Origin: a virus
IMG/VR virus record: IMGVR_UViG_3300029267_000542
Location: 1 to 23,938 of that record
DNA: 23,938 bases
Reading direction: 5' to 3' (one strand)
In this document: one piece after another, positions 1-19,697 of the stretch
Position numbering within the stretch: the stretch's first letter is position 1
How the letters are laid out: every line of letters begins with the position of its first letter
The notes under the pieces: model-generated
Databases searched by the model: none
What the model was told of the DNA's origin: nothing
What the model saw: the letters and a program-made list of their open reading frames with translations, nothing else
Position numbers and translations under genes: made by a program

Positions 1-514
1 GGCACACGGGACACCCCTCGCTGTCTGTAATAGACAATAGTGCCAAGTTAGGGTGTGGGCTTATCCATGCTCTCATAAGCAAGTAAACATCTTCCAAGAC
101 CTTTACGTCTTGTTGGCAGTACTCATCCATAAACTCCAAAGCCTCGTAGTCCTTATCCATACACCTACGCCATAGCCCCTGTTCGGTCTTTAGCTTGCCC
201 TCTATGCCAAAGAAGTTTTTAGCGATATAGTCCAACCTGTTAGAGGTAATAGAAAATCTTTTGCGCACATGGATTAATGTATCTATGACCTGATAGGGAG
301 AGGGTCTGCCAATACCATGTTCCAAGAACCGTGTATTGACCTTCTTAATATCGAACTTCACGCCATTGTGTGCAATTAAAACTTCCGCCTCGTTTATCAG
401 TTCCCATATAGAGCGTGAAATTCTACTGTCGTCTAAGTTATTTAGCTCCTCCTGTGTCATTCTATCAGACATTACCTCATCGGAAAATAACCACTTTGCC
501 GACCAACACAACAT
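1..514 (-). pseudogene. 3'-5' exonuclease (DEDD/RNase H-like), ExoI end missing; runs off left edge
   Basis: The minus-strand frame stays open from an ATG at 514 (MLCWSAKWLF...) to the window edge, giving at least 171 codons. It has an ExoII-type segment (AHNGVKFDIKKVNTR) and an ExoIII-type segment (YCQQDVKVLEDVY). After HPNLALL it reaches GCPVC, the start of what looks like a C-terminal zinc ribbon. This matches the phage DEDD exonuclease family, which trims DNA 3' ends. Members normally begin with a VLVFDIETSP-type strand carrying the ExoI Asp and Glu. Here the upstream frame stops after KVLVW and the body resumes at MLCWSAKW in another frame, so ExoI is absent. The real start could be 514 or the ATG at 472, which overlaps the stop of the upstream frame as TAATG. 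Family assignment is fairly sure. Loss of activity is inferred. Confidence 0.72.
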
Positions 515-735
515 ACCCAGACCAGCACTTTGCAGTTATCCATGTTTTTCTTGGAGATAAGTTGGTTGATAATACCTTGGTTTTCGCTTACTATTCTCCT
601 AATAATTCTTTCTGCCGAAGAAGTAGAAAATATTAATTTAGGATTGTCTTTTTTTAACTCTTTCAGAATTTCAGAAGAACTTAATCCTTTTGCGGATAAT
701 TTTATAATCGCCGAATGATGGGTCTCCCAATTCAT
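472..735 (-). pseudogene. Helix-turn-helix N-terminal part of the exonuclease gene, frame broken
   Basis: This is an 87-codon frame starting with MNWETHHSAIIKLSAKG. The first half (about residues 8-50) reads like a resolvase or sigma-type helix-turn-helix: SAIIKLSAKGLSSSEILKEL followed by SSAERIIRRIV. Residues 64-73 (KNMDNCKVLVW) look like the first strand of the DEDD exonuclease. The next ten or so residues (VCCVGRQSG) are out-of-frame translation of exonuclease sequence. It stops at 472 in a TAATG overlap with an in-frame ATG of the exonuclease body. In related phages an HTH and exonuclease in one polypeptide is plausible, so I read this as the 5' part of one gene split by a small deletion. 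It could also be expressed as a short HTH protein. Confidence 0.6.
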
Positions 736-745
736 TGTTGTCTTT

Positions 746-1075
746 TTAGGTTATGGATGTGATTTCAAATGAAATATACTCCTTCCCCTTGTCAACCTTT
801 TCTTTTGTGGCGCAAAAGGAAAAAACGTCTTTATCGTTGAATTTGTACTTTTTTTGTAGTATGTCTTGTACCAATTTTACAGGATTGTCAACATCAGATA
901 ACACGCTACTAAAGCCAAAGGTGTATTCTATGTGGTAAGGGGGTGTCGGCATTTTGTAGTTCTTTGGCAACAAAAGCAATAGCGTTTTCTCATACGCCTT
1001 GTACTCCTTTGTCTTTATCCGCCTCCCCTTCCACGCTTTATTAACGCTTAATGGCTTTATATCAATCCTCCTCAT
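746..1075 (-). CDS. rusA: RusA-family Holliday junction resolvase
   Basis: This 109-residue protein has the RusA layout. The N-terminus is basic, with SVNKAWKGRRIKTKEYKAYE (about residues 10-29). A central motif, SDVDNPVKLVQDIL (about 59-72), is followed by KFNDKDVFSFCATKEKV and a final strand, YISFEITS. The Asp of DVDN, the Asp of QDIL and the Asp of NDKDV fit the family's metal-binding aspartates. RusA cuts four-way junctions; in phages it resolves recombination or replication intermediates before packaging. The length is usual for the family (about 100-135 residues). The start at 1075 overlaps the 3' end of the upstream acidic gene by 14 bases. It lies next to the exonuclease, consistent with a DNA recombination and repair group. 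Confidence 0.85.
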   Translation of the reverse strand: MRRIDIKPLSVNKAWKGRRIKTKEYKAYEKTLLLLLPKNYKMPTPPYHIEYTFGFSSVLSDVDNPVKLVQDILQKKYKFNDKDVFSFCATKEKVDKGKEYISFEITSIT

Positions 1076-1304
1076 CTTCTTCTTCCTCTAAATCATCCGA
1101 ATTATCAGGGAAGATGGTAAGGTCGTACTCATCTTCGGGGAACTTAATGTACTTAGAGAATAACAAGTGTATTTGCTTTGCCTGTTCTGGGATAATATCC
1201 TCGTCCATGCTTGCATCGGCATTGACGGCAAACGCCCTGTTTGCTCCAATCGTTAACCCCGTTTTTACAAGCATATGCAAAATTGCTGATTCGTGTAGTT
1301 TCAT
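1062..1304 (-). CDS. Small acidic hypothetical protein
   Basis: I do not recognise this 80-residue protein. It begins MKLHESAILHMLVKTGL and ends in a run of acidic residues (SDDLEEEEDEED). It has no membrane segment, cysteine motif or clear DNA-binding motif. The ATG at 1304 is 12 bases from the stop of the DnaA-like gene, and the 3' end overlaps rusA by 14 bases, so it sits inside the tightly packed minus-strand operon. Phage proteins with such tails sometimes bind basic partners or mimic DNA, but nothing here identifies a partner. Gene reality rests on the packing and the fixed overlap. Confidence 0.7.
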   Translation of the reverse strand: MKLHESAILHMLVKTGLTIGANRAFAVNADASMDEDIIPEQAKQIHLLFSKYIKFPEDEYDLTIFPDNSDDLEEEEDEED

Positions 1305-1316
1305 GTGTTTTTATTT

Positions 1317-1811
1317 TTATAAACCATCAAATATGTTCTCTTTGGTATAGGTCTTTATTAGGGTGATTTCGGTATCCGTTAGCTGCCCTGTCTGATACCA
1401 CGCTATAACCTTGCTTATTGCCTTTGTAATATTACCATGGCTTGTATGACCATATCTCCAACCTACATTTTTCAGCGACATATTGTAACCATGATAAGCA
1501 ATAAATCGCAAAATATGCTTAGTGCGACTATTGCCTTTGCCGTGCTTTTTATAAACATTCTTTAACGGTACTTTGTGCAGGTCTGCAACCATAACATCTA
1601 CCTCATCAAGCGGAGTATTATTGGTTGGTTGTCTGTGTATAGACAACAAGTACGACAACTCTTTAACCTTGCTTGATAATACCTTGTTCTGTTGTTTTAA
1701 TCTTTTTAGCTCTTTGTAGTCAAAAGATGCTAATAATGTCTTATACCGTTCTTTCCAATCTACTTCTTTGGGCTTTGCTTTGCCTACGGGGTTTAATACA
1801 CTCCATGCCAT
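1317..1811 (-). CDS. DnaA domain IV-like DNA-binding protein
   Basis: This 164-residue protein has a basic, partly coiled-coil N-terminal half (about residues 20-60, YKELKRLKQQNKVLSSKVKE). Its C-terminal half (about 70-150) reads like domain IV of the replication initiator DnaA. LDEVDVMVADLHKVPLKNVY corresponds to the first helices, RTKHILRFIAYHGYNMSLKNVG to the basic helix and turn, and TSHGNITKAISKV stands where DnaA has its DHTTV signature helix. DnaA domain IV binds duplex DNA boxes at origins. There is no AAA+ ATPase domain, so this is not an initiator by itself. It could mark a phage origin, compete for host DnaA boxes, or act as a regulator. Its neighbours are replication and repair genes. 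The domain call is fairly confident; the role is inferred. Confidence 0.72.
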   Translation of the reverse strand: MAWSVLNPVGKAKPKEVDWKERYKTLLASFDYKELKRLKQQNKVLSSKVKELSYLLSIHRQPTNNTPLDEVDVMVADLHKVPLKNVYKKHGKGNSRTKHILRFIAYHGYNMSLKNVGWRYGHTSHGNITKAISKVIAWYQTGQLTDTEITLIKTYTKENIFDGL

Positions 1812-1817
1812 AATAAT

Positions 1818-2261
1818 TTATTTTTTTTTGTTGTTATAATATAAACTTTTACAATACCATTCTGATAAATCCCATTCAAGGGCTACCTGTCGAGGGCTTT
1901 TTGTCTGCAACTCCTTCAAAATCGTTATCTTATCTTCTTCCGTGATTTTTTTATGCAACATATCCCCAAATCTACAAACACCTTTTATCCGCTTCTTAAA
2001 AAAATCAGGGGTATTTATCTCTTGTATGTCCGCTTCCATGACCGCTTTTTTCATCTGCGACAAATATCTTTGAGAGGTAATCGTTCTACCATTAGGCGAT
2101 AAGTCCGCATAGTCTTGGTCTTTGCAAGTAACAACGCCATTGTGCAGTATCAGCTTTACATCTCCCATCCACAGTGCATTTTCTATTGTGCCGTCTGTTT
2201 TAGCAAACGGTATTGAACGACCCTTTGCCTTTACACACTTTCTAAATGCCTGTTCGTCCAT
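1818..2261 (-). CDS. Hypothetical protein with a possible C-terminal HTH
   Basis: This 147-residue protein is not recognised. The first 90 residues carry a beta-rich stretch (GTIENALWMGDVKLILHNGVVTCKDQDYADL). About residues 105-140 (ITEEDKITILKELQTKSPRQ, then VALEWDLSEWYCKSLYY) have the spacing of a helix-turn-helix: an acidic helix, a turn, then a second helix with aromatic residues. The protein ends in a basic NNKKK. It lies between the SSB-like group and the DnaA-like gene, 6 bases upstream of the latter, so it is probably expressed with them. A DNA-binding role is an inference from the C-terminus and the neighbours. Confidence 0.62.
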   Translation of the reverse strand: MDEQAFRKCVKAKGRSIPFAKTDGTIENALWMGDVKLILHNGVVTCKDQDYADLSPNGRTITSQRYLSQMKKAVMEADIQEINTPDFFKKRIKGVCRFGDMLHKKITEEDKITILKELQTKSPRQVALEWDLSEWYCKSLYYNNKKK

Positions 2262-2269
2262 TCTGTCCT

Positions 2270-2650
2270 TTATAGCAAAAGGTCATCGTCATTGTAAATC
2301 TTAGGAGAATTGGCTACCGATATTGTTTCGGCAATCACAACGTCATCATCGCCCCTATCTTCTTCGCCAAAAGTAATATCCCACCTTTGCTTGTACACTA
2401 CCTTTTGGTTATTGTCATACTCCCAATTCTCGCCAATAAAACCCATCTCAAAAGTGCCGTTTTGCTCTTTCATAAATATAGGTCTGCCGAAGTTATACAA
2501 GGGGGGTATCACGCTTTCGTGTGTTTCAGGATTGCGTATCACAAAGAACGTGGTGTAATTGTCCTTTTTGTACTGCCGAAACTCCCCCTCATATACCACA
2601 GGGTTTTCCATGCGATTGCCCTTATCATTCCATACCGCTACTTTTACCAT
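2270..2650 (-). CDS. Hypothetical protein with an acidic C-terminal tail
   Basis: This 126-residue protein is not recognised. The N-terminal 90 residues are rich in beta-forming and aromatic residues (YEGEFRQYKKDNYTTFFVIR, FEMGFIGENWEY), as in a small beta-barrel. The end is strongly acidic (EEDRGDDDVVIAE...) and closes with YNDDDLLL. This resembles, without matching, the acidic hydrophobic tip that single-strand binding proteins use to recruit partners. The start overlaps the upstream gene by 26 bases, and the true SSB-like candidate is two genes upstream. An accessory role in replication is possible; I cannot name a family. Confidence 0.62.
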   Translation of the reverse strand: MVKVAVWNDKGNRMENPVVYEGEFRQYKKDNYTTFFVIRNPETHESVIPPLYNFGRPIFMKEQNGTFEMGFIGENWEYDNNQKVVYKQRWDITFGEEDRGDDDVVIAETISVANSPKIYNDDDLLL

Positions 2651-2933
2651 CTCTTTTTAGTTTGTTTATGCCGTTAATCAAATCCTCTTTCAGTACCGAT
2701 GCTTGAACATTAGGGATATAGTTTTCTTCATCCCCAATGTCCTGAATATCGGTTTCGTTTATTACCGCATATGTAGGCATATTTGACACCATTGTGCAAA
2801 CAGACGTAAGGAGTTCTTCGTGCATTTCTTCTACGATACGCTCTGCGGTGCGTAGCCACACCGTTTTCATTTCAGGGTTCTCCTCCCATGACCTTGCAGC
2901 CATGCGCATCTTTTCTGTATATTTACTTACCAT
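2625..2933 (-). CDS. Small hypothetical protein
   Basis: This 102-residue protein begins MVSKYTEKMRMAARSWEENP. It is mostly helical in composition, with a long amphipathic stretch at about residues 12-50 (LRTAERIVEEMHEELLTSV). A middle acidic loop (DIQDIGDEENYIPN) separates it from a final basic helix (LINGINKLKRDGKSSGME). There are no cysteine, membrane or nucleotide-binding motifs. It starts 9 bases downstream of the SSB-like gene and overlaps the next gene by 26 bases, so it is probably translated together with both. I do not recognise the family. Confidence 0.63.
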   Translation of the reverse strand: MVSKYTEKMRMAARSWEENPEMKTVWLRTAERIVEEMHEELLTSVCTMVSNMPTYAVINETDIQDIGDEENYIPNVQASVLKEDLINGINKLKRDGKSSGME

Positions 2934-2942
2934 AGCCTTGCA

Positions 2943-3296
2943 TTAAAAAGGTAGGTCTCCATCATCCTCAGAACTACTTGATGCGGGGGTGCTATTATTT
3001 TTACCACCACTCTTTTCAGTAGCCTCTCCAGACCATATTACCCTTGTATTGCCCAAATATACCTTTTTTTCGCCACTCACACGCTGTTCTTTAGTTTGAC
3101 CAAGCCAAACACCGCCGTTATTGCCGTATTGGTCTACGCTGTCATTCACCTCTCCCATAAGGTCTAAGTAAATGCCTTTCTCTCCACGATAGAACTGGTC
3201 TATTGGGAACTGTATTACTTCTGTGCCTTTTGAGGTCTTTGTAATCTGATGCTTTAACTTTGAAACGTCAGCCTTAATTGATGTTAATCTTACCAT
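2943..3296 (-). CDS. Single-stranded DNA-binding-like protein with DLPF tip
   Basis: This 117-residue protein has a beta-rich body of about 90 residues, which could form an OB-fold-sized domain (IQFPIDQFYRGEKGIYLDLM, VYLGNTRVIWSG). A Ser/Gly/Asn-rich linker follows (SGGKNNSTPASSSS), then the tip EDDGDLPF. Bacterial SSB proteins end in a disordered linker and a DDDIPF-type tip that binds replication and repair partners. The layout here is the same, with the last two residues identical. Length is short for an SSB but normal for phage versions. The OB fold itself is not proven by eye. Neighbouring replication and recombination genes fit the assignment. Confidence 0.6.
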   Translation of the reverse strand: MVRLTSIKADVSKLKHQITKTSKGTEVIQFPIDQFYRGEKGIYLDLMGEVNDSVDQYGNNGGVWLGQTKEQRVSGEKKVYLGNTRVIWSGEATEKSGGKNNSTPASSSSEDDGDLPF

Positions 3297-3304
3297 TGTT
3301 TTTA

Positions 3305-4078
3305 TTATTTGATTTTGTGAAAAATATCTTTAACGCCATCACGATAGTCTTGTATCGCCTGTGTGTACTTAGGCATAAATTCTGTTGCATAACGCACTTT
3401 CCATTGCGTGTAATCATCGCCACCTGCGTCTACGTGGTCTAAATCCACACCACACAAAAAGACGTTCCAAAAGCCTGCAATCGAGGAACGGACGCTGTAT
3501 AGGCTATCGTCAAAACCATACACCCCATCCAGCTGATACAGACCGCCAATTCTGTCAATAAGTGCAGAGGAAAACATTGTGCAAGTACCCATTATGTGTC
3601 GGCACTTCTCTACTACTATCCACCGCTGACCCTTTTCTTGCGGTATCATGTGTAATTTACTTTGCGCCCAATCTGTTCTGTGTGGGCTTTCATCTAAATC
3701 CCTGCGCTTTAATCCAATAATGCCTATCTTGGGTTCTCTTGCAATAGCCTCTTCCATTAAGTCTACCCACCCATCACTGTGAACAACAACATCGTTATCC
3801 ATTTTTATAGCGTTTTCCCCAACATTGCGGAGAGCCAAGCCTTGATTAATGGCTTTGGCAGTCCCCACGTTTTGTTGGTTGGTTATCAGGGTGAACCCCA
3901 TGCGTGTCTGCATATGAGATAGCAGTTGCTTTGTAGCCTTGCAGCTATCGTTGTCTATTACTACAAGCCTGTGCTTGTTGAAATCTACCCTTTTTTGCAA
4001 ACTTTCTAATGTCTGCCGAGTGTAATCTGTTCTTCTGTTTTCGACTGTATCATAAACAGCCATGTTTATTAACGCCAT
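3305..4078 (-). CDS. Family 2-type (GT-A) glycosyltransferase
   Basis: The 257-residue protein carries GT-A features in order. About residues 37-44 (RLVVIDNDS) form the nucleotide-binding strand. NQQNVGTAKAINQGL (about 67-81) is the usual N-x-G...A.N.G motif. MDNDVVVH (93-100) contains the DxD metal and sugar-nucleotide motif. A conserved aromatic and acidic region follows (GVYGFDDSLYSVRSS). No transmembrane segments are seen, unlike GtrB-type enzymes. It should transfer a sugar from an activated nucleotide donor; the acceptor (modified phage DNA, a virion protein or a host surface glycan) cannot be read from the sequence. It follows the second glycosyltransferase by 3 bases. The ATG at 4078 is used; a second ATG at 4063 also fits. 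Confidence 0.85.
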   Translation of the reverse strand: MALINMAVYDTVENRRTDYTRQTLESLQKRVDFNKHRLVVIDNDSCKATKQLLSHMQTRMGFTLITNQQNVGTAKAINQGLALRNVGENAIKMDNDVVVHSDGWVDLMEEAIAREPKIGIIGLKRRDLDESPHRTDWAQSKLHMIPQEKGQRWIVVEKCRHIMGTCTMFSSALIDRIGGLYQLDGVYGFDDSLYSVRSSIAGFWNVFLCGVDLDHVDAGGDDYTQWKVRYATEFMPKYTQAIQDYRDGVKDIFHKIK

Positions 4079-4081
4079 GTG

Positions 4082-5053
4082 TTACAAAGATAACATTGTT
4101 TTTAGAATATTTAAACGCTTGTGATAATTTGTTTTTGCCCTTTCCTGTGCTTTTTTCTGTTGGGTTACTACCTCATCCGACATTGCGGCATATCCATCCC
4201 TCCATGTGTTGTACGCCTGATTAAGCGCAAGGTGCAATCCACCTTTTTTGTAGGCATAGGTATCGGAGTTATTCCATTCAGGAGTTATGCTTAACATTCC
4301 ATTTACTAACCCCTCCAATACAGCGCAATCGCTTTTGCTTTTGTTAAACAGGCTTTCGTTCAATGGAACGTACAAGACATCGCCAATTTGTTTTCCTTGT
4401 AAAAATTCAAAGTAGGTAGATGTGTCCATGCCTTTTATCTTCCTAATACCACAATGCCTGTTGACCTCTCTTATGCAGATAGGTGAAACATCCCCAATAA
4501 ATACAAACTCTATGTCTTTTTTACCATTAAGAAATTTCAACAGTTCGGGCATATTGTCAAAGAAGTCTAAGTCGTGGGTATTGCTACCACGCCATACTAT
4601 GCGAAACTTATCGGTACGCATAGGTTTATTGTAGGTAACGTCTAAGGGAATGTAGTTCTGTATTACCTCACCATTAGCGTTGTAGCTATCCATTAGAGGC
4701 TCTGTGCTTGTCGTTATCATGTCGGCTAACTGTACTAACTCTACAATAGAGTTCGTCTTGTATGCGTCATGTGTGGGGTTGTCGGTGGGTATATTGAGTA
4801 TATCATCATCCCAGTCCATCCATATTTTTGTGTACCGCTTTGCAAGTTGACAGTATCGCACATGGCTTTTATCGTGGGGGCGGTGCATGAAGATAAGGTC
4901 GTAACCTGTAAAGTCGCTCCATGACCCTTTATTGGAATTTTCAAAAACAATAGGCAAGTTTTCTTTTCTTGCTATTTGGTTAAACACTCCCCACGCACGG
5001 TAAAAAGAAGTACCATCGGTAGGGTGTGGTGTCCATAAGTTTACTTTCTTCAT
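4082..5053 (-). CDS. GT-B-type (family 4-like) glycosyltransferase
   Basis: This 323-residue protein begins with a strand and a Ser/Thr/Gly loop (VNLWTPHPTDGTSFYRAWG), as in GT-B enzymes that act without processive membrane anchors. Next comes DWDDDILNIP (about 80-89), then the linker-domain marker VIQNYIPLD (130-138). The donor-binding C-terminal half has FRIVWRGS, VFIGDVS and, at about 236-252, FNKSKSDCAVLEGLVNG, which stands where family 4 enzymes have the E-containing donor loop. No membrane helix is seen. It lies 14 bases downstream of a small membrane protein and 3 bases upstream of the GT-A enzyme, so the three genes look like one transcription unit. The family is fairly sure; the acceptor is unknown. 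Confidence 0.8.
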   Translation of the reverse strand: MKKVNLWTPHPTDGTSFYRAWGVFNQIARKENLPIVFENSNKGSWSDFTGYDLIFMHRPHDKSHVRYCQLAKRYTKIWMDWDDDILNIPTDNPTHDAYKTNSIVELVQLADMITTSTEPLMDSYNANGEVIQNYIPLDVTYNKPMRTDKFRIVWRGSNTHDLDFFDNMPELLKFLNGKKDIEFVFIGDVSPICIREVNRHCGIRKIKGMDTSTYFEFLQGKQIGDVLYVPLNESLFNKSKSDCAVLEGLVNGMLSITPEWNNSDTYAYKKGGLHLALNQAYNTWRDGYAAMSDEVVTQQKKAQERAKTNYHKRLNILKTMLSL

Positions 5054-5067
5054 ATTCCTAATCTAAT

Positions 5068-5436
5068 TTACTTATACGTTGTGTGAAAACCCAACATCCA
5101 CGACCCATAAAAAGCAATAAACACAAAGATTAATTCTATTACTGTAAAATCAAAGCAAGGCAAAAACACCGCACAGGCAATAAGAATAAACCTGCTGATA
5201 GTGCTGAACAAATGATAGGCATCAGTAGTCCATGCAAGAATAGTAGTGCTACCCCAAAATGCAGGCTCAGTTGTTGAACCCGCCTTATACTTGTTCTTCC
5301 ACGATATTTCAGGATTCCAAAACAAGGGGTTAAGGTTGTACTTTTCATACTCTTTGTAGTGAAAGAGCAATCCTTGTGTGATGCCGTAAGAAGCACCTGA
5401 AATAAAGAATAAAAGCAATGTTACAATTTCTGTCAT
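5068..5436 (-). CDS. Small integral membrane protein with SWKNKYK motif
   Basis: This 122-residue protein has a hydrophobic N-terminal helix (about residues 4-20), a soluble segment with LNPLFWNPEISWKNKYKAG (about 35-53), then TTDAYHLFSTISRF leading into two hydrophobic segments near the C-terminus (about 83-118). The pattern FW...SWKNKYK followed later by TDAYHLF resembles a family of uncharacterised membrane proteins from Bacteroidota and their phages that I know only as hypothetical. It is not a clear holin or GtrA flippase. A good promoter lies just upstream (5453-5482), giving a leader of only about 10-14 bases. The gene heads the unit containing both glycosyltransferases, so a shared role at the cell envelope is possible. 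Confidence 0.75.
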   Translation of the reverse strand: MTEIVTLLLFFISGASYGITQGLLFHYKEYEKYNLNPLFWNPEISWKNKYKAGSTTEPAFWGSTTILAWTTDAYHLFSTISRFILIACAVFLPCFDFTVIELIFVFIAFYGSWMLGFHTTYK

Positions 5437-5452
5437 AGTTGTTAGTTTGTTA

Positions 5453-5482
5453 CAAAATTAATAATTGATACTCAAAATACAA
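5453..5482 (-). promoter_or_regulatory. Bacteroidota-type promoter for the membrane protein/glycosyltransferase unit
   Basis: On the minus strand the sequence TTG (5482-5480), a 19-base spacer and TAATTTTG (5460-5453) match the Bacteroides consensus of a -33 TTG and a -7 TAnnTTTG. Transcription would begin near 5446-5449, about 10-14 bases before the ATG at 5436. The site fills the gap between the HU/IHF-like gene and the membrane protein gene. Confidence 0.62.
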
Positions 5483-5484
5483 AA

Positions 5485-6045
5485 TCATTCCGAGTAATAT
5501 TTACATATCCTATGCAACCCCTTGGGGGTAGCAATAGGTATCAAGTTCTTTCGTTTAAGCCATGAAAAAACAGAACCAGTAGATGTGTACTGCTCGGAGG
5601 TAACTTCTTCTATATCGGCAGAAATAACACCCCAACGCCATATCTTCTTACCCCTTACCGTTTCTGATACCATTTCAACCACAGGCTTAACCAATAAATC
5701 CTCATCCCCGACAAGGCTTTTTATCCACCCTAATCGGTACGTATTGCTACTTACCCGATAGTGCTGTAAATCGCCTACTCTTTTTCTACTGTTGTACGTT
5801 GTTTTCTTAGCATCCTCTATGGCTTTACGGATGCCGTCAGGCATAGGAACGTCCTGACCCAATGCTTTGTACTTAAATATGTATTTGTGTAGCCTGAACT
5901 CGCAAATGTCTTTTATGGCAATAGGTTCAAACTTTTCAGCACTTAAACGTATTCCTTCCCAAAAGGAACGAATATAACCTTTTACTAATTTTTCGTCTAA
6001 ATTTTCTTCCCTTGCTATTTGGGAAATAATATCTCTTTCTAACAT
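5485..6045 (-). CDS. HU/IHF-like DNA-binding protein with a C-terminal extension
   Basis: The first 60 residues of this 186-residue protein (IISQIAREENLDEKLVKGYI, RSFWEGIRLSAEKFEPIAIK, DICEFRLHKY) follow the HU/IHF dimerisation pattern: two helices, a longer helix, then the strand where HU has the V-x-I-x-G-F-G-x-F motif, here IAIKDICEFRL. The rest is unusual: a basic stretch (TTYNSRKRVG) and a C-terminal region of about 45 residues (SEQYTSTGSVFSWLKRKN) that may be a second small helix-turn-helix domain. Similar HU/IHF-like subunits are known in crAss-like phages. The gene follows the ring-like gene by 16 bases. Assigned mainly from the N-terminal pattern. Confidence 0.6.
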   Translation of the reverse strand: MLERDIISQIAREENLDEKLVKGYIRSFWEGIRLSAEKFEPIAIKDICEFRLHKYIFKYKALGQDVPMPDGIRKAIEDAKKTTYNSRKRVGDLQHYRVSSNTYRLGWIKSLVGDEDLLVKPVVEMVSETVRGKKIWRWGVISADIEEVTSEQYTSTGSVFSWLKRKNLIPIATPKGLHRICKYYSE

Positions 6046-6061
6046 TTTTGTTTCTTAGCAC

Positions 6062-6736
6062 TTAGGTATCGTCCCTTGAATTGTTTTGTAAATCTGTCGG
6101 GGTCTGTATTGTAAGACCCAATTCTTGTAAAACAAAACGCACCACTTCATCTTCTGTGGTAGTAAGCATAGGATAGTCTACTGTATAGCCCTCTACATCA
6201 AAGTCGGGGTTTATCCTATCGTCTACCTCCGATGGGTCAGCAAAAACACCACGAATATCTATTACCTCAATATCCTCTAATTGGTCGGAGGGGGCAACAT
6301 AAATATCGCCTCCACGCAAATACCAAAAGTTGAACATAGCACCAATCTTTGTCTTTTTCTTTACCGCTATATCCGTTGGCTCGGCATACATAAACGGTAA
6401 CGCCCTATCAATTATACCCACATAGGTTATTGCTCTGTGTTTAGGCAAAGACAGGAACGTAGGAACACTACACACCTTTTTTACCTTACACCCCCATACG
6501 TACAATGGGTTTTCGGCTTTATCCACCTCGCATAGCTTACGAGCACCGTAGTCTTGTTCCACGTATTTCAGTAACGTGCTTTCTTTACCAAAGTCGGTTG
6601 AATACTTTATGTTGGTATTTCGGTATGTGTTAAGCAGGGAATAAAGATAACGAAGTGTCATTCTCGCATCATCTGATGCTACGCCACCACGTTGTACCGC
6701 CCTTCTAAGCCTTACACACCATTCATGTGCTGTCAT
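6062..6736 (-). CDS. Virion connector/ring-like structural protein
   Basis: I take the ATG at 6736, giving 224 residues beginning MTAHEWCVRLRRAV. It forms an ATGA overlap with the GroES-like gene; an upstream in-frame ATG at 6763 would overlap by 31 bases. The layout matches a family annotated as structural in crAss-like and related Bacteroidota phages. It begins with an N-terminal helical unit (SDDARMTLRYLYSLLNTYRN), followed by a middle part (KVKKVCSVPTFLSLPKHRAI, TYVGIIDRALPF). Next comes a strand-rich part (FNFWYLRGGDIYVAPS), then VIDIRGVFADPSEVDD and a final helix (VVRFVLQELGLTIQTPTDLQ). Such proteins form connector rings between portal and tail. Finding it on the minus strand, away from the plus-strand virion block, is notable. 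Confidence 0.6.
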   Translation of the reverse strand: MTAHEWCVRLRRAVQRGGVASDDARMTLRYLYSLLNTYRNTNIKYSTDFGKESTLLKYVEQDYGARKLCEVDKAENPLYVWGCKVKKVCSVPTFLSLPKHRAITYVGIIDRALPFMYAEPTDIAVKKKTKIGAMFNFWYLRGGDIYVAPSDQLEDIEVIDIRGVFADPSEVDDRINPDFDVEGYTVDYPMLTTTEDEVVRFVLQELGLTIQTPTDLQNNSRDDT

Positions 6737-7023
6737 ACAAGATATTTTTGCGAATATACGCAATCTTTTGGAATAATAGCCATTATATCGGTTTCCCTCA
6801 TTAACAGCATCTCTTTTTCGTCTATTTCGTGTTTCAGTCCTACGCCACGCTCGAATACAACCATATCCCCAACCTTCACATCTCTTGCCTTATCGGCTTT
6901 GTAGGTTATTGTCCCGACCACAGGAGCGACAGAGGTAGTCCCTAAATCCGCCATTATAAGCCCATAATTAAACTTCTTAACATCTTCTGGTTCTACAAAT
7001 ATTAGGTTTCTTAGTAACTTCAT
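6733..7023 (-). CDS. groES: GroES-like co-chaperonin (Cpn10)
   Basis: This 96-residue protein is the usual length for a 10-kDa co-chaperonin. It begins MKLLRNLIFVEPED. A flexible loop (about residues 16-32) contains GLIMADLGTTS, whose LIM tripeptide stands where GroES has the IVL that docks on GroEL. VVGTITYKADKARDVKVGDMVVFERG (about 35-60) matches the beta-barrel core G-x-V...VKVGDxVxF, and MLLMRETDIMAII (72-84) matches the final yLiMrExDIlAVi strand. It would cap the host GroEL chamber to help fold phage proteins, as T4 gp31 does for its capsid protein. The gene overlaps the downstream ring-like gene by ATGA. A repeat-rich noncoding stretch lies upstream. Confidence 0.85.
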   Translation of the reverse strand: MKLLRNLIFVEPEDVKKFNYGLIMADLGTTSVAPVVGTITYKADKARDVKVGDMVVFERGVGLKHEIDEKEMLLMRETDIMAIIPKDCVYSQKYLV

Positions 7024-7043
7024 GTTTAAATATTTTACGATTT

Positions 7044-7064
7044 GCGAATTGCGAATTGCGAATT
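7044..7064. repeat. Tandem 7-bp repeat, three copies of GCGAATT
   Basis: Three exact copies of GCGAATT lie head to tail, preceded by a diverged half copy (acgattt, 7037-7043). The array starts 21 bases upstream of the GroES-like start codon (minus strand) in its 5' leader or promoter region. Phased 7-bp spacing is not helical; the function is unknown. Confidence 0.85.
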
Positions 7065-7111
7065 TAGCACAAAATTTTGAACTAATCGCTTTCTGTTTAA
7101 ATAATTTGCAC

Positions 7112-7119
7112 CAAATATA
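7112..7119 (-). promoter_or_regulatory. Possible -7 box upstream of GroES-like gene
   Basis: The minus strand reads TATATTTG, a full match to TAnnTTTG, about 90 bases before the GroES-like ATG. No TTG lies at the usual 19-21 base spacing (the nearest, within AATTTTG, is 14 bases away), so this is only a candidate. If used, the transcript would carry the 7-bp repeat array in its leader. Confidence 0.35.
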
Positions 7120-7207
7120 GTAAATAGTTGGGACAAAATTTGTTATATCTTATTGGTTTTTGGTTGTTTGTGGTTGGTGCAATTTTTTGAACTACGTTTA
7201 GCAACAA

Positions 7208-7236
7208 GTTGTAAAACATTAAAACGATTTTACAAC
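7208..7236. repeat. 9-bp perfect inverted repeat (possible hairpin or operator)
   Basis: GTTGTAAAA (7208-7216) and TTTTACAAC (7228-7236) are perfect reverse complements separated by 11 bases. The site lies just downstream of the 68-residue gene and upstream of the GroES-like gene on the minus strand. No T-tract follows on either strand, so a simple rho-independent terminator is unlikely. A dimeric repressor site or an RNA hairpin is possible. Confidence 0.6.
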
Positions 7237-7253
7237 AATGTATAACAGTAACA

Positions 7254-7460
7254 CTAACTGTCAAGTTTTTTTATCAACTTCTTCAAAGCGGTGTATTCGC
7301 CCCAAGTTAATTGAAACCTTGTGCTTAACTTACCTACTATTTCAACATCAAACCCCTCACCATTTTTCCATTCGGTAACTTCTATAAAGTCTTGTTCATT
7401 TGCTGTGTGGTCGTATTTCTTCAAGCAAATAAATACCGCTTTTCTTGTGTACTTATTCAT
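7254..7460 (-). CDS. Small hypothetical protein
   Basis: This 68-residue protein begins MNKYTRKAVFICLKKYD and ends LTWGEYTALKKLIKKLDS. It has a beta-rich middle (FIEVTEWKNGEGFDVEIVGKL) and a basic amphipathic C-terminal helix. I do not recognise it. The copy of a 28-bp repeat (7463-7490) ends just 3 bases before the ATG, so the repeat is effectively its leader. It is the most upstream gene of the small-gene cluster nearest to GroES. Confidence 0.55.
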   Translation of the reverse strand: MNKYTRKAVFICLKKYDHTANEQDFIEVTEWKNGEGFDVEIVGKLSTRFQLTWGEYTALKKLIKKLDS

Positions 7461-7462
7461 AT

Positions 7463-7490
7463 TTTTCTTAATACAATCTCAGCCGCTTGT
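7463..7490. repeat. 28-bp repeat, copy A
   Basis: This segment matches 7936-7963 at 22 of 28 positions, and all six differences are transitions. In the minus-strand sense it reads ACAAGCGGCTGAGATTGTAT then TAAGAAAA, and stands directly before the ATG at 7460. ACAA and TTGT within it can pair. It may be a shared leader, promoter-region element or regulatory RNA motif. Confidence 0.6.
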
Positions 7491-7499
7491 ATATAACTG

Positions 7500-7600
7500 T
7501 TATTTTTCAAGTCGCCTAAAAAACATTACAATGTTCATTTCCCTTCGTTGCCCTTTGGCTTTTGGTTGTTTTTATCGGTTATCAATAGTTTAGTGTTCAT
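7500..7600 (-). other. Two tiny overlapping frames (21 and 12 residues), uncertain
   Basis: From an ATG at 7600 a 21-residue frame (MNTKLLITDKNNQKPKGNEG...) ends at 7535 in an ATGA overlap with a second ATG at 7538, which gives 12 residues (MNIVMFFRRLEK) ending at 7500. They fill most of a 178-base gap between two small genes. Chance frames are likely in such AT-rich sequence; the only support is the overlap, which mimics coupled genes elsewhere in the window. Confidence 0.22.
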
Positions 7601-7638
7601 TAGTGAGAACCGTGTTTTATACGACTGTTGTGGTGCAT

Positions 7639-7833
7639 TTAATACGTTTTGCATCGAAAATATTCGAAGTCGATATGTTCTTCCATAAACAAAGCCTTTG
7701 CGTGTTTATTATTGTAAGCCTCATACCATTTTGCCCAGTACCCACCATTTTGGATATATTCGACTTTTATAGCCTTGGTTTCATTTTTAGGCTTTATTTC
7801 GTTTTTTTCGTTAATTGTACAATGAATAATCAT
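7639..7833 (-). CDS. Small hypothetical protein
   Basis: This 64-residue protein (MIIHCTINEKNEIKPKNETK...) has a basic N-terminal half and an aromatic, charged C-terminal half (GGYWAKWYEAYNNKHAKALF). It is rich in Lys, Asn, Tyr and Trp with no membrane segment. I do not recognise it. Its ATG at 7833 overlaps, as ATGA, a 12-codon frame that is itself joined by TAATG to a 17-codon frame, so it may be translated from a leader of short frames. Its support is moderate: an open frame in a region without any better candidate on either strand. Confidence 0.5.
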   Translation of the reverse strand: MIIHCTINEKNEIKPKNETKAIKVEYIQNGGYWAKWYEAYNNKHAKALFMEEHIDFEYFRCKTY

Positions 7834-7921
7834 ATTTTGGTTTTTTTAATGTTGGTTATTTCATACATTAAGTGCCTTTTTTACCGTTAACGTTGATTTT
7901 TTCATACAAGGCACTAATCAT
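7830..7921 (-). other. Two tiny coupled frames upstream of the 64-residue gene, uncertain
   Basis: An ATG at 7921 opens a 17-residue frame (MISALYEKINVNGKKGT) ending at 7868. Its TAA overlaps an ATG (TAATG) opening a 12-residue frame (MYEITNIKKTKI), which ends at 7830 in an ATGA overlap with the 64-residue gene. Such a chain could be a leader-peptide arrangement or chance. Confidence 0.25.
7871..7915. repeat. 8-bp inverted repeat enclosing a 29-base loop
   Basis: AGTGCCTT (7871-7878) pairs perfectly with AAGGCACT (7908-7915). The loop contains the palindrome GTTAAC. It spans almost exactly the tiny 17-codon frame and could form a weak hairpin in the leader of the 64-residue gene. There is no clear terminator T-tract at the outside of the stem. 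Confidence 0.45.
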
Positions 7922-7935
7922 ATACTTACCAGTTA

Positions 7936-7963
7936 TTTTCTCAATACAACCCTAACTGCTTGT
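7936..7963. repeat. 28-bp repeat, copy B
   Basis: This is the second copy of the element at 7463-7490 (22 of 28 identical, all differences transitions). In the minus-strand sense it reads ACAAGCAGTTAGGGTTGTAT then TGAGAAAA. It lies 15 bases before the tiny ATG at 7921, in the leader of the second small gene unit, parallel in position and orientation to copy A. Confidence 0.6.
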
Positions 7964-8026
7964 TAATCTTGTCCGACAAGGTAGTGAATAGGATTTTGTA
8001 TTGCCACTTAATAGTTCATACGCCAG

Positions 8027-8308
8027 TTACCTTCTTTTAGGCTTTACTCTTGCGTTCCACTTAGGCTCATCCAAAGCACAGCTTTCTTCCCATGACCGTA
8101 TCTTGGTAGCCAAAGGGCAAAGGCATATCTCACAATGCTTACCCGATATTTGTGGGTTACGCCTGTCTTTGATTATATCCGTGAATGACATTCTTTTGTG
8201 TACGCAGTTGCCACAGATAGTAGCACGTTCTGCTGCCATTTTCTCGGTTTCCTTATTTGGGAACACATAGTTCCACCAGCCGTTAATAATACTTAGTATT
8301 TTTTTCAT
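8027..8308 (-). CDS. Small zinc-ribbon-like protein
   Basis: This 93-residue protein has an N-terminal amphipathic segment (MKKILSIINGWWNYVFPNK) and then cysteine pairs typical of a metal-binding ribbon: ICGNCVHK (about residues 31-38), HCEICLCPLATKIRS (about 58-72) and ESCALDEPKW (about 74-83). Proteins with this CxxC...CxICxCPL...SC pattern recur in Bacteroidota phages, usually near lysis genes, with no known function. The N-terminal tryptophan-rich helix could associate with a membrane surface. It starts 7 bases downstream of the amidase gene and is probably cotranscribed with it, so a link to lysis is possible but unproven. Confidence 0.72.
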   Translation of the reverse strand: MKKILSIINGWWNYVFPNKETEKMAAERATICGNCVHKRMSFTDIIKDRRNPQISGKHCEICLCPLATKIRSWEESCALDEPKWNARVKPKRR

Positions 8309-8315
8309 TTATGGT

Positions 8316-8801
8316 TTATTTGATGTAAATATTTTTTTTAGGTATGCCAATAGCACTCAACCACTTTGGGACGTCAAACGAAGGGCAAGCCTTTTTTGCA
8401 AATTGATTATGACCCGCTACCTTGATATTGGGATGCCGTGCAATGGTTTCCTTGACGTATTTTATCATTGCCAATTCCTGCAACCATGTGCGTGTATCTC
8501 TCGCCTTTTTCACGTCATTAGCGTCTACTCCGCCAACGTAGACAACGTGCCTGCTGATGCTGTTTATTCCGCTTGCTCCGTTGGTTATTTCCCAAACATC
8601 AACAATATCATCGTCATTGTAAGGCACTAAATTTTCAACTCTTCCGTCCAAGTGTATCATATCGGCATATCCTACCTGTTTCCAACCTCTACCTTTCGGT
8701 GGTGGTGATGTATGCCAGCGCCTTATTTCGTCTGATGTTACATCCCTACCTTCAGGGGTAGCGGTACAATGTATGACTAAGTAGGTTAGTGGTTTGCTCA
8801 T
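8316..8801 (-). CDS. N-acetylmuramoyl-L-alanine amidase (T7 lysozyme-like endolysin)
   Basis: This 161-residue amidase-2 domain protein has YLVIHCTAT (about residues 7-15) with the first zinc ligand His11, GYADMIHLDG with Tyr45, and VAGHNQFAKKACPSFDV (about 128-144) with His131, Lys137 and Cys139. The His-x5-Lys-x-Cys spacing equals that of T7 lysozyme (His122, Lys128, Cys130). It should cut the amide bond between the sugar and peptide of host peptidoglycan at lysis. No signal peptide is seen, so it would need a holin or other route. The start overlaps the upstream gene by ATGA. As in T7, such an enzyme can also regulate transcription, but nothing here shows that. Confidence 0.92.
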   Translation of the reverse strand: MSKPLTYLVIHCTATPEGRDVTSDEIRRWHTSPPPKGRGWKQVGYADMIHLDGRVENLVPYNDDDIVDVWEITNGASGINSISRHVVYVGGVDANDVKKARDTRTWLQELAMIKYVKETIARHPNIKVAGHNQFAKKACPSFDVPKWLSAIGIPKKNIYIK

Positions 8802-9091
8802 GCGTAGTTAGCGTTGTATTTGTCTAAAATAGAACCTAAAGATATATGATTTTCAGGGAATAGTTCCTTTACTTGGTTTTTACGCTTATATTCTCCACCC
8901 TCTGCTTCGTAGAAATTAAGTGTCATATTCTCACCGTTTCTGTTAAACCACAGTTCTATCATGCTGTCGTCTGTTGTTCTGCGGAACTTTACATTGGTAC
9001 ACTGACACGCTACATACGGATATCCGTATAGTTCGGGGTTAAAGTTGAAAGTGTACTCTACACCGTTTCTTTCATAAGTAAATTGTTCCAT
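8798..9091 (-). CDS. Hypothetical beta-rich protein
   Basis: This 97-residue protein begins MEQFTYERNGVEYTFNFNPE and is dominated by alternating beta-type residues with many aromatics (YGYPYVACQC, MIELWFNRNGENMTLNFYEA). A short helix is likely near the end (LGSILDKYNANYA). I do not recognise it. It overlaps the amidase start by four bases (ATGA), so the two are probably translated together. It lies 22 bases downstream of the primase-helicase gene. A lysis accessory or replication role cannot be decided from sequence. Confidence 0.68.
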   Translation of the reverse strand: MEQFTYERNGVEYTFNFNPELYGYPYVACQCTNVKFRRTTDDSMIELWFNRNGENMTLNFYEAEGGEYKRKNQVKELFPENHISLGSILDKYNANYA

Positions 9092-9113
9092 GTTTTTGTT
9101 TGTTGTTTTGCTA

Positions 9114-10898
9114 TTAAAAATTCTTAAACGCTTCTAAATAAGGGTCTACGCCGTCAAAAACATATCTTCTTTTGCTTCTGTAATATTCAAAATGAACAGT
9201 ACCCTTTTTCCCGACTATTTTTTGTCTTTTTATCTTCTTTGTGTGTAATTCGCAAGCTGTTGACATAGGGTCTGTTTGATGGTTAGGTCTGTGATAAATT
9301 AAAATATTGTACATCTTGTTATTCCACATAGCACCACCCGCCATGTCATAAACATCGGGGCATGGGTAATTACCTGTGCTGTCTTTATATGCTTTTGTAG
9401 GGTGCGCAACAATCCAAAAATAAACATTGTTAGATACCGCAAATCTATCAAAATCTCCCAATATACCCTCTAAATATTGGTCGGAACGACCACCAAATGT
9501 TGCATAATCGTTTGTCATCTGGTTGAAAGGGTCAATAATACAGCCGTCTATACCCTCTTTTATTATCAATTCCAAGAACCGTTCTTTTACATATGCAGGG
9601 GTCGGACTTAATGACTCAGGGTAGATATAAAAAAACCTACTTGAAACAAAGTCATAAGCCATTTCATACACTTTCTGTGATGGTCTATTCGGGTTATTAG
9701 GTGTGCAATCACAACTTAAGTATATCTCTGTAAGGTCGTGATAAAACTCTTGTGCAGGGTTATCTTCGGGAGCAAATATGGCAAACTTAGAACCGTGCTT
9801 TATGCTGTGTAGCAATTTGTACCATTTCATGTAATTCGATTTCCCGTAGTTACCATAGCCTGAAAGCAACGTAACCTCACCTCGCTTCATTTTGAAGTGA
9901 CTATCAAGTTCCTCCAACCCAACACCATGCACAAAACCATACCCTTCGTTGTAGATTTTTATAGCATCACCCTTCACGTCAAGACCGTAAACAACATCTC
10001 TTGGTCTTACATTTTCATCGTAAATAGAAGCATCAACCTCTACCTCTTTTCGTGTAATCTTATCAATCAGCGTCTCCCTTTCAAATACCGCTGTGCCAAG
10101 TTGATTGAATTTGTAGGCAGACTTTATGGTTCGTGTGGTTTCTCCTTTTGTAAAATCCGTACCCCTAACATCAAACCGATTTAGAAATAAACCCTCTGTT
10201 ACATCCTGTGGAATACCAAAGCGACAGCAAGCCGATGCTAACTTGTACAGAAATAGGTTTCTTTCGCCCTCTACGAAACTATCTCCCTTGTTGGCTAACC
10301 AAGTAAGCAAATTGGTAAAAATGCTCTCATACTCGCTTAAAACGTCAAATTGCTCAATCTTCTCAAATTTGGTTGTTTTGGTGTAAACAACAGCCTTTGG
10401 GTTTATGTAAATATCGGGGTCGCAACTTTCAAAGCATATACGGCTTTCGTTAATCCCTGATTTGTCTATTTCGGGCATTTCTTCTTGCAGTGCTTCAAAG
10501 TGCGCTCGGTGCATCTTTGGCTGTGCAATTCTGACAAGTGCCTTTAGACCGTTACCCGATGGTGATACCCAACAAGAGTAGATGAAGTCTTTGGAAATTA
10601 GTTCTGTTTGGTAGTCCCTAAGCTCATCACCTGTGCCGATATTGTCAAAGTCTAATACCAAAAATCCGCTGTGTTCGACAATGCTTGCATCTGTTCTTTC
10701 GGCGGGAAACTTACCCGACCACAGGACTATCGGTAAACCCTGCTTTAGCAATTCACGCTTTTTTTTGTCTATGGCATTGCGTATGGCGTTTGTCTTTTCG
10801 GACTGCTTACAATCTTTTATCCTTTTCAGAGCCTTTTCTACGGTTATGTATTTCGGCTCTTTGGAATACATACTCTCAAATATCGTTACTGTCGGCAT
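9114..10898 (-). CDS. VirE-N/prim-pol primase fused to DnaB-like helicase
   Basis: Using the ATG at 10898 (594 residues), the N-terminal region carries LVLDFDN (about residues 81-86) and SPSGNGLKALV (about 112-122). This is the metal-binding DFD and SGxG pair of VirE-N/BT4734-type archaeo-eukaryotic primases. A PriCT-like helical region follows (NLFLYKLASACCRFGI). The C-terminal half has Walker A GYGNYGKS (about 347-354), Walker B GCIIDPFNQ (Asp about 456) and a sensor segment AHPTK, as in DnaB/RecA-type replicative helicases. It would prime and unwind phage DNA. A frame opening with TTG at 10919 overlaps the upstream gene and is less likely. It follows the initiator-like gene by 11 bases. 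Confidence 0.85.
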   Translation of the reverse strand: MPTVTIFESMYSKEPKYITVEKALKRIKDCKQSEKTNAIRNAIDKKKRELLKQGLPIVLWSGKFPAERTDASIVEHSGFLVLDFDNIGTGDELRDYQTELISKDFIYSCWVSPSGNGLKALVRIAQPKMHRAHFEALQEEMPEIDKSGINESRICFESCDPDIYINPKAVVYTKTTKFEKIEQFDVLSEYESIFTNLLTWLANKGDSFVEGERNLFLYKLASACCRFGIPQDVTEGLFLNRFDVRGTDFTKGETTRTIKSAYKFNQLGTAVFERETLIDKITRKEVEVDASIYDENVRPRDVVYGLDVKGDAIKIYNEGYGFVHGVGLEELDSHFKMKRGEVTLLSGYGNYGKSNYMKWYKLLHSIKHGSKFAIFAPEDNPAQEFYHDLTEIYLSCDCTPNNPNRPSQKVYEMAYDFVSSRFFYIYPESLSPTPAYVKERFLELIIKEGIDGCIIDPFNQMTNDYATFGGRSDQYLEGILGDFDRFAVSNNVYFWIVAHPTKAYKDSTGNYPCPDVYDMAGGAMWNNKMYNILIYHRPNHQTDPMSTACELHTKKIKRQKIVGKKGTVHFEYYRSKRRYVFDGVDPYLEAFKNF

Positions 10899-10909
10899 AA
10901 TATTATTTT

Positions 10910-11722
10910 TCAAACCCAATCATCTCTTTCAGGTATGTACTGTTTACTAACATTTGCTTGTTCAACTTTCTTTGTGGGTTCGATAACTTCATCTTCCCAC
11001 CGCTTTTGGTTTATGTACGTGCTTGGGTGTGCTATAAATTGCATCTCCTTACCCTTGCAAAAATCGTCAATCTTCTCTAAGGCTACAAATTTTTCTTCAT
11101 CTTTTAATTTGTTCCACGCTTTTTCAGCAACCACCTTTTGCGTCTTGCGAGGATAGGCTTGCCAAAATTCCGAAAAATCGGGCGGGGCGGAATCTATATT
11201 GGCTACTAACACCATTTCAGAGGTTGATGCTGTATCCCCAATGTTGTCATGTTGTGCTAATTTGTCATTTTCAGAATTTTCGGACAATATATTATTCTTT
11301 ATTTCTTTACTTCTTATATTCTTTACTTCTTTAGATGTGGTTAGTTGTTGGTTAGTTGTTGGTTGATAGGGTGTTAGATTGATGGTTGATTTGCTGGTTA
11401 TTTCATCGTCTACATCTTGATAAAAGTCATAGTTTACAATGGTTGCGATAGAAAATTTGTTGGTTACCTTGATGGTTATTTCGTTGGTTGATTTTAGATG
11501 ATTTATTGCTGTGCGAACAGACTGTTCAGTAATAGTAAGGGTTTTAGCCAATTTTTGTCTACCAATTACTACACTTCCACGAGGTATTAAATACCCTTTG
11601 TATCGGCTATCTTCATAGTTCGCAGTTAATAGCAAGTGCATAAAAACTCTAAAGGTATTTCCGTCAGAGTACCACTCCCATTTAATCATTCTTCTGTGAA
11701 GTTTAATCCATCCTGTGTCCAT
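10910..11722 (-). CDS. Winged-helix replication protein (initiator or helicase-loader type)
   Basis: The N-terminal 110 residues of this 270-residue protein (GWIKLHRRMIKWEWYSDGNT, FRVFMHLLLTANY, PRGSVVIGRQKLAKTL, TEQSVRTAINHLKSTNEI) are the conserved winged-helix module of phage replication proteins. It is followed by a Thr/Asn-rich linker (about 118-175). The C-terminal domain reads FWQAYPRKTQKVVAEKAWNK and later FIAHPSTYINQKRWEDE, the usual tail of such proteins in Bacteroidota and Firmicutes phages. They bind the origin or load the helicase, which fits the primase-helicase gene directly downstream. The long polar linker also carries recurrent TTGGTTA-like motifs at the DNA level (about 11340-11490). 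Confidence 0.8.
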   Translation of the reverse strand: MDTGWIKLHRRMIKWEWYSDGNTFRVFMHLLLTANYEDSRYKGYLIPRGSVVIGRQKLAKTLTITEQSVRTAINHLKSTNEITIKVTNKFSIATIVNYDFYQDVDDEITSKSTINLTPYQPTTNQQLTTSKEVKNIRSKEIKNNILSENSENDKLAQHDNIGDTASTSEMVLVANIDSAPPDFSEFWQAYPRKTQKVVAEKAWNKLKDEEKFVALEKIDDFCKGKEMQFIAHPSTYINQKRWEDEVIEPTKKVEQANVSKQYIPERDDWV

Positions 11723-11731
11723 GCTTTGATT

Positions 11732-11995
11732 TTATTGGTTTTGTATTTTACCAAAATTAATTTTGTGTTTCCATTCAAACTCAATACCGTTTGATGTTTT
11801 TGCAGAGATAATATAACCACTATCTTGCAACTCTTTGAAAACCCTATCAATCGTTCCACGCCTTTGACCAAATTCGGTGTAAAGGTTTTTCTTCAAAATC
11901 TTGTAATCTTCGCCAAAACTCAAAAGACAGAACAAAAGACCTTTTGCCTCTAAAGACAAAGACTTGTCATTAACTACGCTATTCATTATTTCCAT
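11732..11995 (-). CDS. Small winged-helix DNA-binding protein
   Basis: This 87-residue protein (MEIMNSVVNDKSLSLEAKG...) has the pattern of a winged helix: LSLEAKGLLFCLLSFGEDYK (helix 1), KILKKNLYTEFGQRRGTIDR (recognition region), and VFKELQDSGYIISAKTSNGI (helix and wing). The motif is like the first half of the downstream replication protein but without a C-terminal domain. It lies 9 bases upstream of that gene and 5 bases downstream of the first gene of the arm. It is probably an early regulator or a replication cofactor. Confidence 0.72.
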   Translation of the reverse strand: MEIMNSVVNDKSLSLEAKGLLFCLLSFGEDYKILKKNLYTEFGQRRGTIDRVFKELQDSGYIISAKTSNGIEFEWKHKINFGKIQNQ

Positions 11996-12000
11996 TTTTG

Positions 12001-12279
12001 TTATTTTGTGTTATATGCCTTATCAGTTACTTTTATGTAACCATTTTCACCAATCCTTTCTATGTAGCCAAACGCTTCCAAAGAATTAAGTATGTTGAAT
12101 ATACTCTTTTGTGAAAGGTCAAGCCTTTCCGCAAAAACTCTTTTTGGGATTGTTGAATATTCTCCTTGCCATTGGTCTTGAATTATTGAATTGTGTATTT
12201 CTACCAATACAGCCATTTGGTTTAGCGACAAGCCTAACGCCTTTCGTTGCTTGTGCAGGTCGAGGTCAAGTGTACTCAT
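12001..12279 (-). CDS. First gene of the leftward arm: winged-helix regulator-like protein
   Basis: This 92-residue protein shows LSLNQMAVLVEIHNSIIQDQ, then STIPKRVFAERLDLSQKSIF, NILNSLEAFGYIERIGENGY and IKVTDKAYNTK, the helix-turn-helix and beta-wing order of MarR- or replication-type winged helices. It is the first gene of the minus-strand arm and lies directly beside the divergent region, the classic place for an early regulator acting on both promoters. It could also be a replication protein, since two more winged-helix proteins follow. The ATG at 12279 is preceded by an AT-rich leader and a candidate promoter. Confidence 0.75.
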   Translation of the reverse strand: MSTLDLDLHKQRKALGLSLNQMAVLVEIHNSIIQDQWQGEYSTIPKRVFAERLDLSQKSIFNILNSLEAFGYIERIGENGYIKVTDKAYNTK

Positions 12280-12307
12280 TTTATTGTTTGTTTGTGAAGT
12301 ATTTACA

Positions 12308-12334
12308 CAAAGGTAAGCAAATATTATTATTCAA
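12308..12334 (-). promoter_or_regulatory. Candidate leftward early promoter
   Basis: On the minus strand TACCTTTG (12315-12308) matches TAnnTTTG; a TTG (12334-12332) lies 16 bases upstream, slightly closer than the usual 19-21. Transcription would start near 12301-12304, about 25 bases before the ATG of the winged-helix gene. It is the only good candidate for driving the whole leftward arm. Confidence 0.45.
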
Positions 12335-12346
12335 CCTAATAAACAG

Positions 12347-12375
12347 TTTGTTTTGTATAACTTTTTTTATTTTTG
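12347..12375 (+). promoter_or_regulatory. Candidate rightward promoter for the packaging/virion arm
   Basis: TTTG (12347-12350), a 17-base gap and TATTTTTG (12368-12375) approximate the Bacteroidota promoter. The start would lie near 12382. A purine-rich AAAGGAA just before the ATG at 12404 is a plausible ribosome binding site. Confidence 0.45.
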
Positions 12376-12403
12376 AAGTCTTTGGCAAAGTTAAAGGAAT
12401 TTT

Positions 12404-12952
12404 ATGGCAGATATTAAAAGACCATTGTTGTTTGAAACAACGGAAGATGGATTGGTAGATGATGAAAGAACGGCATGGTATCCACAGTTTAAAAAGCTAT
12501 CACAGGTGGAAATGACCTATGTGGCGTGGATAACAGACTACAACTCCCCCCTATACTCTCAACCCATAGACAGGCGTAAGGACTTAGCAAAGACAATGCT
12601 AAAGACAAAGACAGGGGAAGGTATTGTTGCAAAATCGGATATAGACTTGGCTGTTATGCTGTACAACGAAATACAGTATGACCACTTGGTAGAACAGCTT
12701 AACTCACAGCGTAACATTTTGGACGTATTCACTCGTGAACTGAATATCATTCACTCAATGGGTGATGACAAAAAAGACGTAGAGCGTATTATCAAGGCTA
12801 CCGAAATGCAACAGAGGGCGGAAAAAGAGATAGACAGGTTGCAGGATAAGGTGCTGAAACGCATAACACAAGAAAGCAAAAATAGGGGCAACAAGGTAGA
12901 AAACCACTACTACACATGGTTACAGAGAGCAAAGAATGAAGCACGTTCATAA
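12404..12952 (+). CDS. Coiled-coil protein upstream of TerL (possible small terminase)
   Basis: This 182-residue protein is almost entirely helical by composition, with strong heptad-like stretches (about residues 95-165, LNSQRNILDVFTRELNIIHS, EMQQRAEKEIDRLQDKVLKR). The N-terminus carries LSQVEMTYVAWITDYNSPLY. It overlaps the large terminase gene by 17 bases, which is where small terminase subunits usually lie. There is no clear helix-turn-helix at the N-terminus, so the terminase call rests on position and the oligomerisation-type coiled coil. It is the first gene of the rightward arm and has a well-spaced AAAGGAA before its ATG. Confidence 0.6.
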   Translation: MADIKRPLLFETTEDGLVDDERTAWYPQFKKLSQVEMTYVAWITDYNSPLYSQPIDRRKDLAKTMLKTKTGEGIVAKSDIDLAVMLYNEIQYDHLVEQLNSQRNILDVFTRELNIIHSMGDDKKDVERIIKATEMQQRAEKEIDRLQDKVLKRITQESKNRGNKVENHYYTWLQRAKNEARS

Positions 12953-17143: not shown

Positions 17144-17169
17144 TAGGGCTGTTTTTATTTGAAGTGGTA

Positions 17170-17177
17170 TAAATTTG
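17170..17177 (+). promoter_or_regulatory. Possible -7 box before the scaffold and capsid genes
   Basis: TAAATTTG matches TAnnTTTG 20 bases before the ATG of the scaffold-like gene. No TTG is found at the normal -33 spacing, so this is tentative. A separate promoter here would allow higher expression of scaffold and capsid than of the portal. Confidence 0.3.
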
Positions 17178-17197
17178 TGCATTAACGATTATAAATT

Positions 17198-18184: not shown

Positions 18185-18224
18185 CCTACAAAATTGATAA
18201 CGAAAAAACGAAAAAAAGAAAACC

Positions 18225-19625: not shown

Positions 19626-19639
19626 AAGGATTATATAAT

Positions 19640-19671
19640 GGTGGGGGTAGATATACCCTCACCACTTTTTT
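19640..19671 (+). terminator. Rho-independent terminator after the capsid gene
   Basis: GGTGGGGGTA (19640-19649) pairs with TACCCTCACC (19654-19663) with a single G-U wobble and a four-base loop GATA; AC then a T-run follow. The hairpin lies 15 bases after the capsid stop. Confidence 0.85.
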
Positions 19672-19697
19672 ATTTTAAGAAAATATAATAGACAAAA

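Follow-up and report, generated by a model that had tools for sequence, protein, structure and literature searches.

The window, i.e., the whole stretch of 23,938 nucleotides analyzed here (IMG/VR virus record IMGVR_UViG_3300029267_000542, positions 1 to 23,938), almost certainly carries a broken copy of a conserved DEDD-type exonuclease gene, disrupted by a private loss of 85 bases that represents either a recent allele or an error of the record. It is not a new kind of enzyme: what we observe is a private mutation, or a sequencing or assembly error, in an ordinary gene. The relevant features are the following:

472 to 735, minus strand: 5' part of the exonuclease gene, an ORF of 87 aa
2 to 514, minus strand: 3' part of the gene, the exonuclease body in another frame (171 aa, with no stop before the contig ends)
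518 to 519, minus strand: deletion junction, where 85 bases of the sibling record G001 (19484-19568) are missing
470 to 474, minus strand: TAATG, where the first frame's stop overlaps an ATG inside the body; the intact sibling also has this string, out of frame

The two ORFs are two pieces of one gene. The first (735-472) encodes an N-terminal helical (HTH-like) domain and the opening residues of the first core strand (KVLV), followed by 15 out-of-frame codons and a stop. It shares its residues with positions 1-72 of the intact 325-aa protein of G001, and its C-terminal end reads MDNCKVLVWVCCVGRQSGYFPMR before the stop (also given as KVLVWVCCVGRQSGYFPMR plus stop). The body, whose first start is the ATG at 514 (beginning MLCWSAKW), carries ExoII (AHNGVKFD) and ExoIII (YCQQDV) in the frame 514-2, the upstream part of the gene being in a different frame. 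The DxE motif is absent from all three minus-strand frames between the two ORFs of the window. The frames, the coordinates, and the loss of ExoI are thus as described in an earlier sequence-only reading of this DNA, which had proposed that a stretch of a few dozen codons, its length not divisible by three, was deleted and that everything downstream remained intact. This last statement holds as far as base 2, the limit to which it can be checked; past that point the contig stops, which truncates the C-terminal zinc-ribbon part.

Scanning IMG/VR with the body yielded 30 loci, among them one (L003) that was 100% identical to it. This locus belongs to the record IMGVR_UViG_3300029258_001146 (G001), whose match to the window spans 20,001 bases and contains 11 substitutions, none of them within 5 kb of the junction. 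In an ungapped alignment, positions 1-518 of the window match G001 at 100% and positions 519-20001 at 99.94%. What is left of G001 between the two aligned blocks is exactly 85 bases (19484-19568), sited between positions 518 and 519 of the window, and they code for FDIETYPFLAYSFNKWKTNISDDFIVHDW, i.e., the DxE motif of ExoI plus the greater part of its strand. The exonuclease gene of G001 is a single intact ORF of 325 aa. The missing segment amounts to 28 codons plus one base, hence the frame shift, and the kind of deletion anticipated from the sequence alone is the one found relative to this near-identical sibling.

The gene encodes a conserved phage DEDD-type 3'-5' exonuclease with an N-terminal helical HTH-like domain, an RNase H-like core, and a C-terminal zinc ribbon. 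The intact G001 protein matches positions 4-313 of the 321 in the PHROG 403 profile (E 2.2e-83), so that the whole protein belongs to the family. The body of the window matches positions 100-270 (E 1.2e-54), leaving the first 99 profile positions unmatched, and also matches the Pfam family RNase_H_2 (PF13482, E 2.9e-09). PHROG 403, annotated as "DNA polymerase exonuclease subunit", is an already well-known family of DEDD-type 3'-5' exonucleases of crAss-like and many other phages, with members in Cellulophaga phage phi38:1 (gp009, YP_008241390.1) and in the crAss-like phages cr108_1, cr111_1, and DAC15. As in other DEDD (DnaQ-like or RNase H-like) 3'-5' exonucleases, the intact sibling protein has the DxE pair (D74 and E76), the ExoII aspartate (D157), and the ExoIII aspartate (D238), whereas the copy in the window lacks the DxE pair. 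In the structural model (mean pLDDT of 86), the intact protein has four N-terminal helices (3-15, 20-30, 38-51, and 53-63), a core with its first strand at 70-78 and the next at 102-110, and a strand-rich, zinc-ribbon-like C-terminal part. A PDB search by sequence gave no match, and the top PDB matches of a fold search with this model were B-family polymerases bearing an exonuclease, in agreement with the DEDD assignment. B-family polymerases are expected to hold an RNase H-like exonuclease domain. A literature search retrieved only general papers on proofreading.

The intact protein is 52% identical to that of phi38:1 over residues 61-325, and in both cases a RusA/Holliday-resolvase-like gene lies directly upstream of the exonuclease. 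Gene order and protein similarity thus point to the phi38:1/crAss-like branch as the probable affiliation. In phi38:1 a family-A polymerase gene is found close upstream; no such partner was detected in the window or in G001, both of which are fragments. Within the same two fragments, PHROG 403 matches only this gene in each record, i.e., we found no second, compensating copy of the exonuclease.

The deleted segment is otherwise kept across the family. Two scans of viral contigs gave 85 distinct relative proteins, all of which keep an in-frame DxE (in locus L049, for example, as FDIESSP), and none of which shows the split arrangement or has lost the motif. Among 20 aligned relatives, the residues D74, E76, N152, D157, and D180 are invariant. 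Unlike the intact PHROG 403 relatives that we checked, the copy in the window has lost the 85 bases for ExoI together with its reading frame. When viral contigs were scanned with the left-flank sequence, only the intact sibling matched, and scans with both flanks of the junction gave no further record and no second one with the short junction, with the proviso that such scans may omit records very near the window, so that a very close copy could escape them. Since the relatives keep the in-frame DxE and the junction flanks match no further record, the short form appears to be private to the record of the window. The comparison with relatives proposed in the sequence-only reading therefore recovers the full-length form, both in the sibling and in every relative examined, and its view that the short form is either recent or artefactual agrees with the absence of this form among them.

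We consider a recent null allele and an error of the record to be about equally plausible. There is close to an even chance that the allele is real, i.e., that an illegitimate (non-homologous) deletion arose in a phage sub-population and was tolerated briefly, or complemented in mixed infections. The microhomology at the breakpoints is zero, and none of the 11-mers spanning the junction occurs elsewhere in G001. An overlap-driven mis-join is therefore not evident, no repeat explains one, and some read probably carried the junction, as De Bruijn assemblers would need junction-carrying reads to produce it. Substitutions elsewhere show that the two records derive from different molecules. Arguments against a real allele are the conservation of the motif in every other relative, the failure to find a second record with the junction, and the position of the latter, 518 bases from a contig end. 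The chance that the gene of the phage is intact and that the 85 bases were lost in assembly, library preparation, or sequencing is in our view only a little under even. The short form is in no other record that we found, the contig of the sibling continues for 6983 bases where that of the window stops, and a null allele would be unexpected as a consensus given how strongly the gene is conserved. However, the usual signature of an overlap-driven mis-join is not seen. The surviving sequence is free of further decay, which is compatible with either origin. We also considered two specific routes to the deletion. Mediation by repeats does not fit, since the only direct repeat of at least 8 bases nearby (GCAAAGTG, 119 bases apart) does not match a loss of 85 bases and microhomology is nil; a hairpin-driven event is not suggested either, as the region has an unremarkable folding energy (z of -0.84).

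Whichever its origin, the deletion takes out residues 73-101, including Asp74, Glu76, and the bulk of the first core strand. The 85-base loss between 518 and 519 both removes this segment and shifts the frame, and translation of the sequence as written yields an N-terminal stub of 87 aa and, presumably, no active exonuclease. DEDD exonucleases require the ExoI carboxylates for metal binding. Since these are lost, both the stub and the body are expected to be inactive. If the deletion is real, it likely entails the loss of a 3'-5' exonuclease, possibly proofreading, function.

It had been suggested that the two halves might still be made as separate proteins. A functional split, in which re-initiation at TAATG or at the ATG at 514 would produce halves that work together, is very improbable. 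In its favor, the stop TAA (474-472) overlaps at base 472 an ATG that is in frame with the body (472-470), as the sequence-only reading had pointed out, and the body is open from 514. The ATG at 472 comes after an earlier start of the body, the one at 514. Against a split, Asp74 and Glu76 are in neither half. A start at 472 would also, according to the structural model, lose the next core strand (102-110), and no relative has a split gene. In the intact sibling, the same letters read ...GAG GTA ATG TCT... in frame. Since TAATG is thus already out of frame there, the overlap seems to be an accidental by-product of the frame change rather than an evolved coupling, and the idea of separate working proteins is not supported. 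Even less probable is a programmed frameshift or a spliced insert, with the intact form carrying an element that is missing here, since nothing beyond the frame change itself speaks for it, the 85 bases encode the most conserved catalytic segment and are present in all relatives, the one slippery heptamer that the tested stretch contains, an A-run, lies in the first frame a long way upstream of the junction, and frameshifting could not restore the DxE.

In itself, this is an ordinary case of a well-known phage gene whose copy is broken or mis-assembled, and it calls for caution: a striking loss of a motif in a single metagenomic contig amounted to one difference of 85 bases from a near-identical record. 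There is a slim chance that the deletion is both real and abundant, in which case there would be a natural phage strain devoid of this 3'-5' exonuclease, possibly with a higher mutation rate or reliant on intact siblings to complement it. Should the deletion prove real and frequent, these two records would provide a natural test of the role of a stand-alone exonuclease in the replication fidelity of crAss-like phages.

A few other observations were made on these records. Across around 19 kb, the only difference between the window and G001, besides the deletion and a cluster near the end of G001, is a neighboring double substitution at 5755-5756 (CC in the window, TT in G001), which results in R97Q in the ORF 6045-5485 (minus strand). 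The cluster comprises 9 of the 11 substitutions, at positions 19677-19892, at most 325 bases from the contig end of G001, and causes four amino-acid changes in the ORF 19698-20435, which points to mixed strains at this end of the contig. The window also encodes a primase/helicase-like gene (9114-10919, minus strand) whose N-terminal domain is BT4734-like and whose C-terminal part is DnaB-like. Among the homologs of the exonuclease, the C-terminal four-cysteine ribbon (CPxC...CxxC), found in L003:2695-3669 and its relatives, is conserved in most of the family, with 90% or more of the aligned rows having it. The segment N-terminal to the core differs across the relatives compared (L009, L011, L018, L031, and L119 versus L103 and L111 versus L004, L005, L021, and L023), the types being HTH-like, C/H-rich (FRCKHRH...SHP.C), and CxxC zinc-ribbon-like. 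This variety suggests that modules have been swapped on one exonuclease core.
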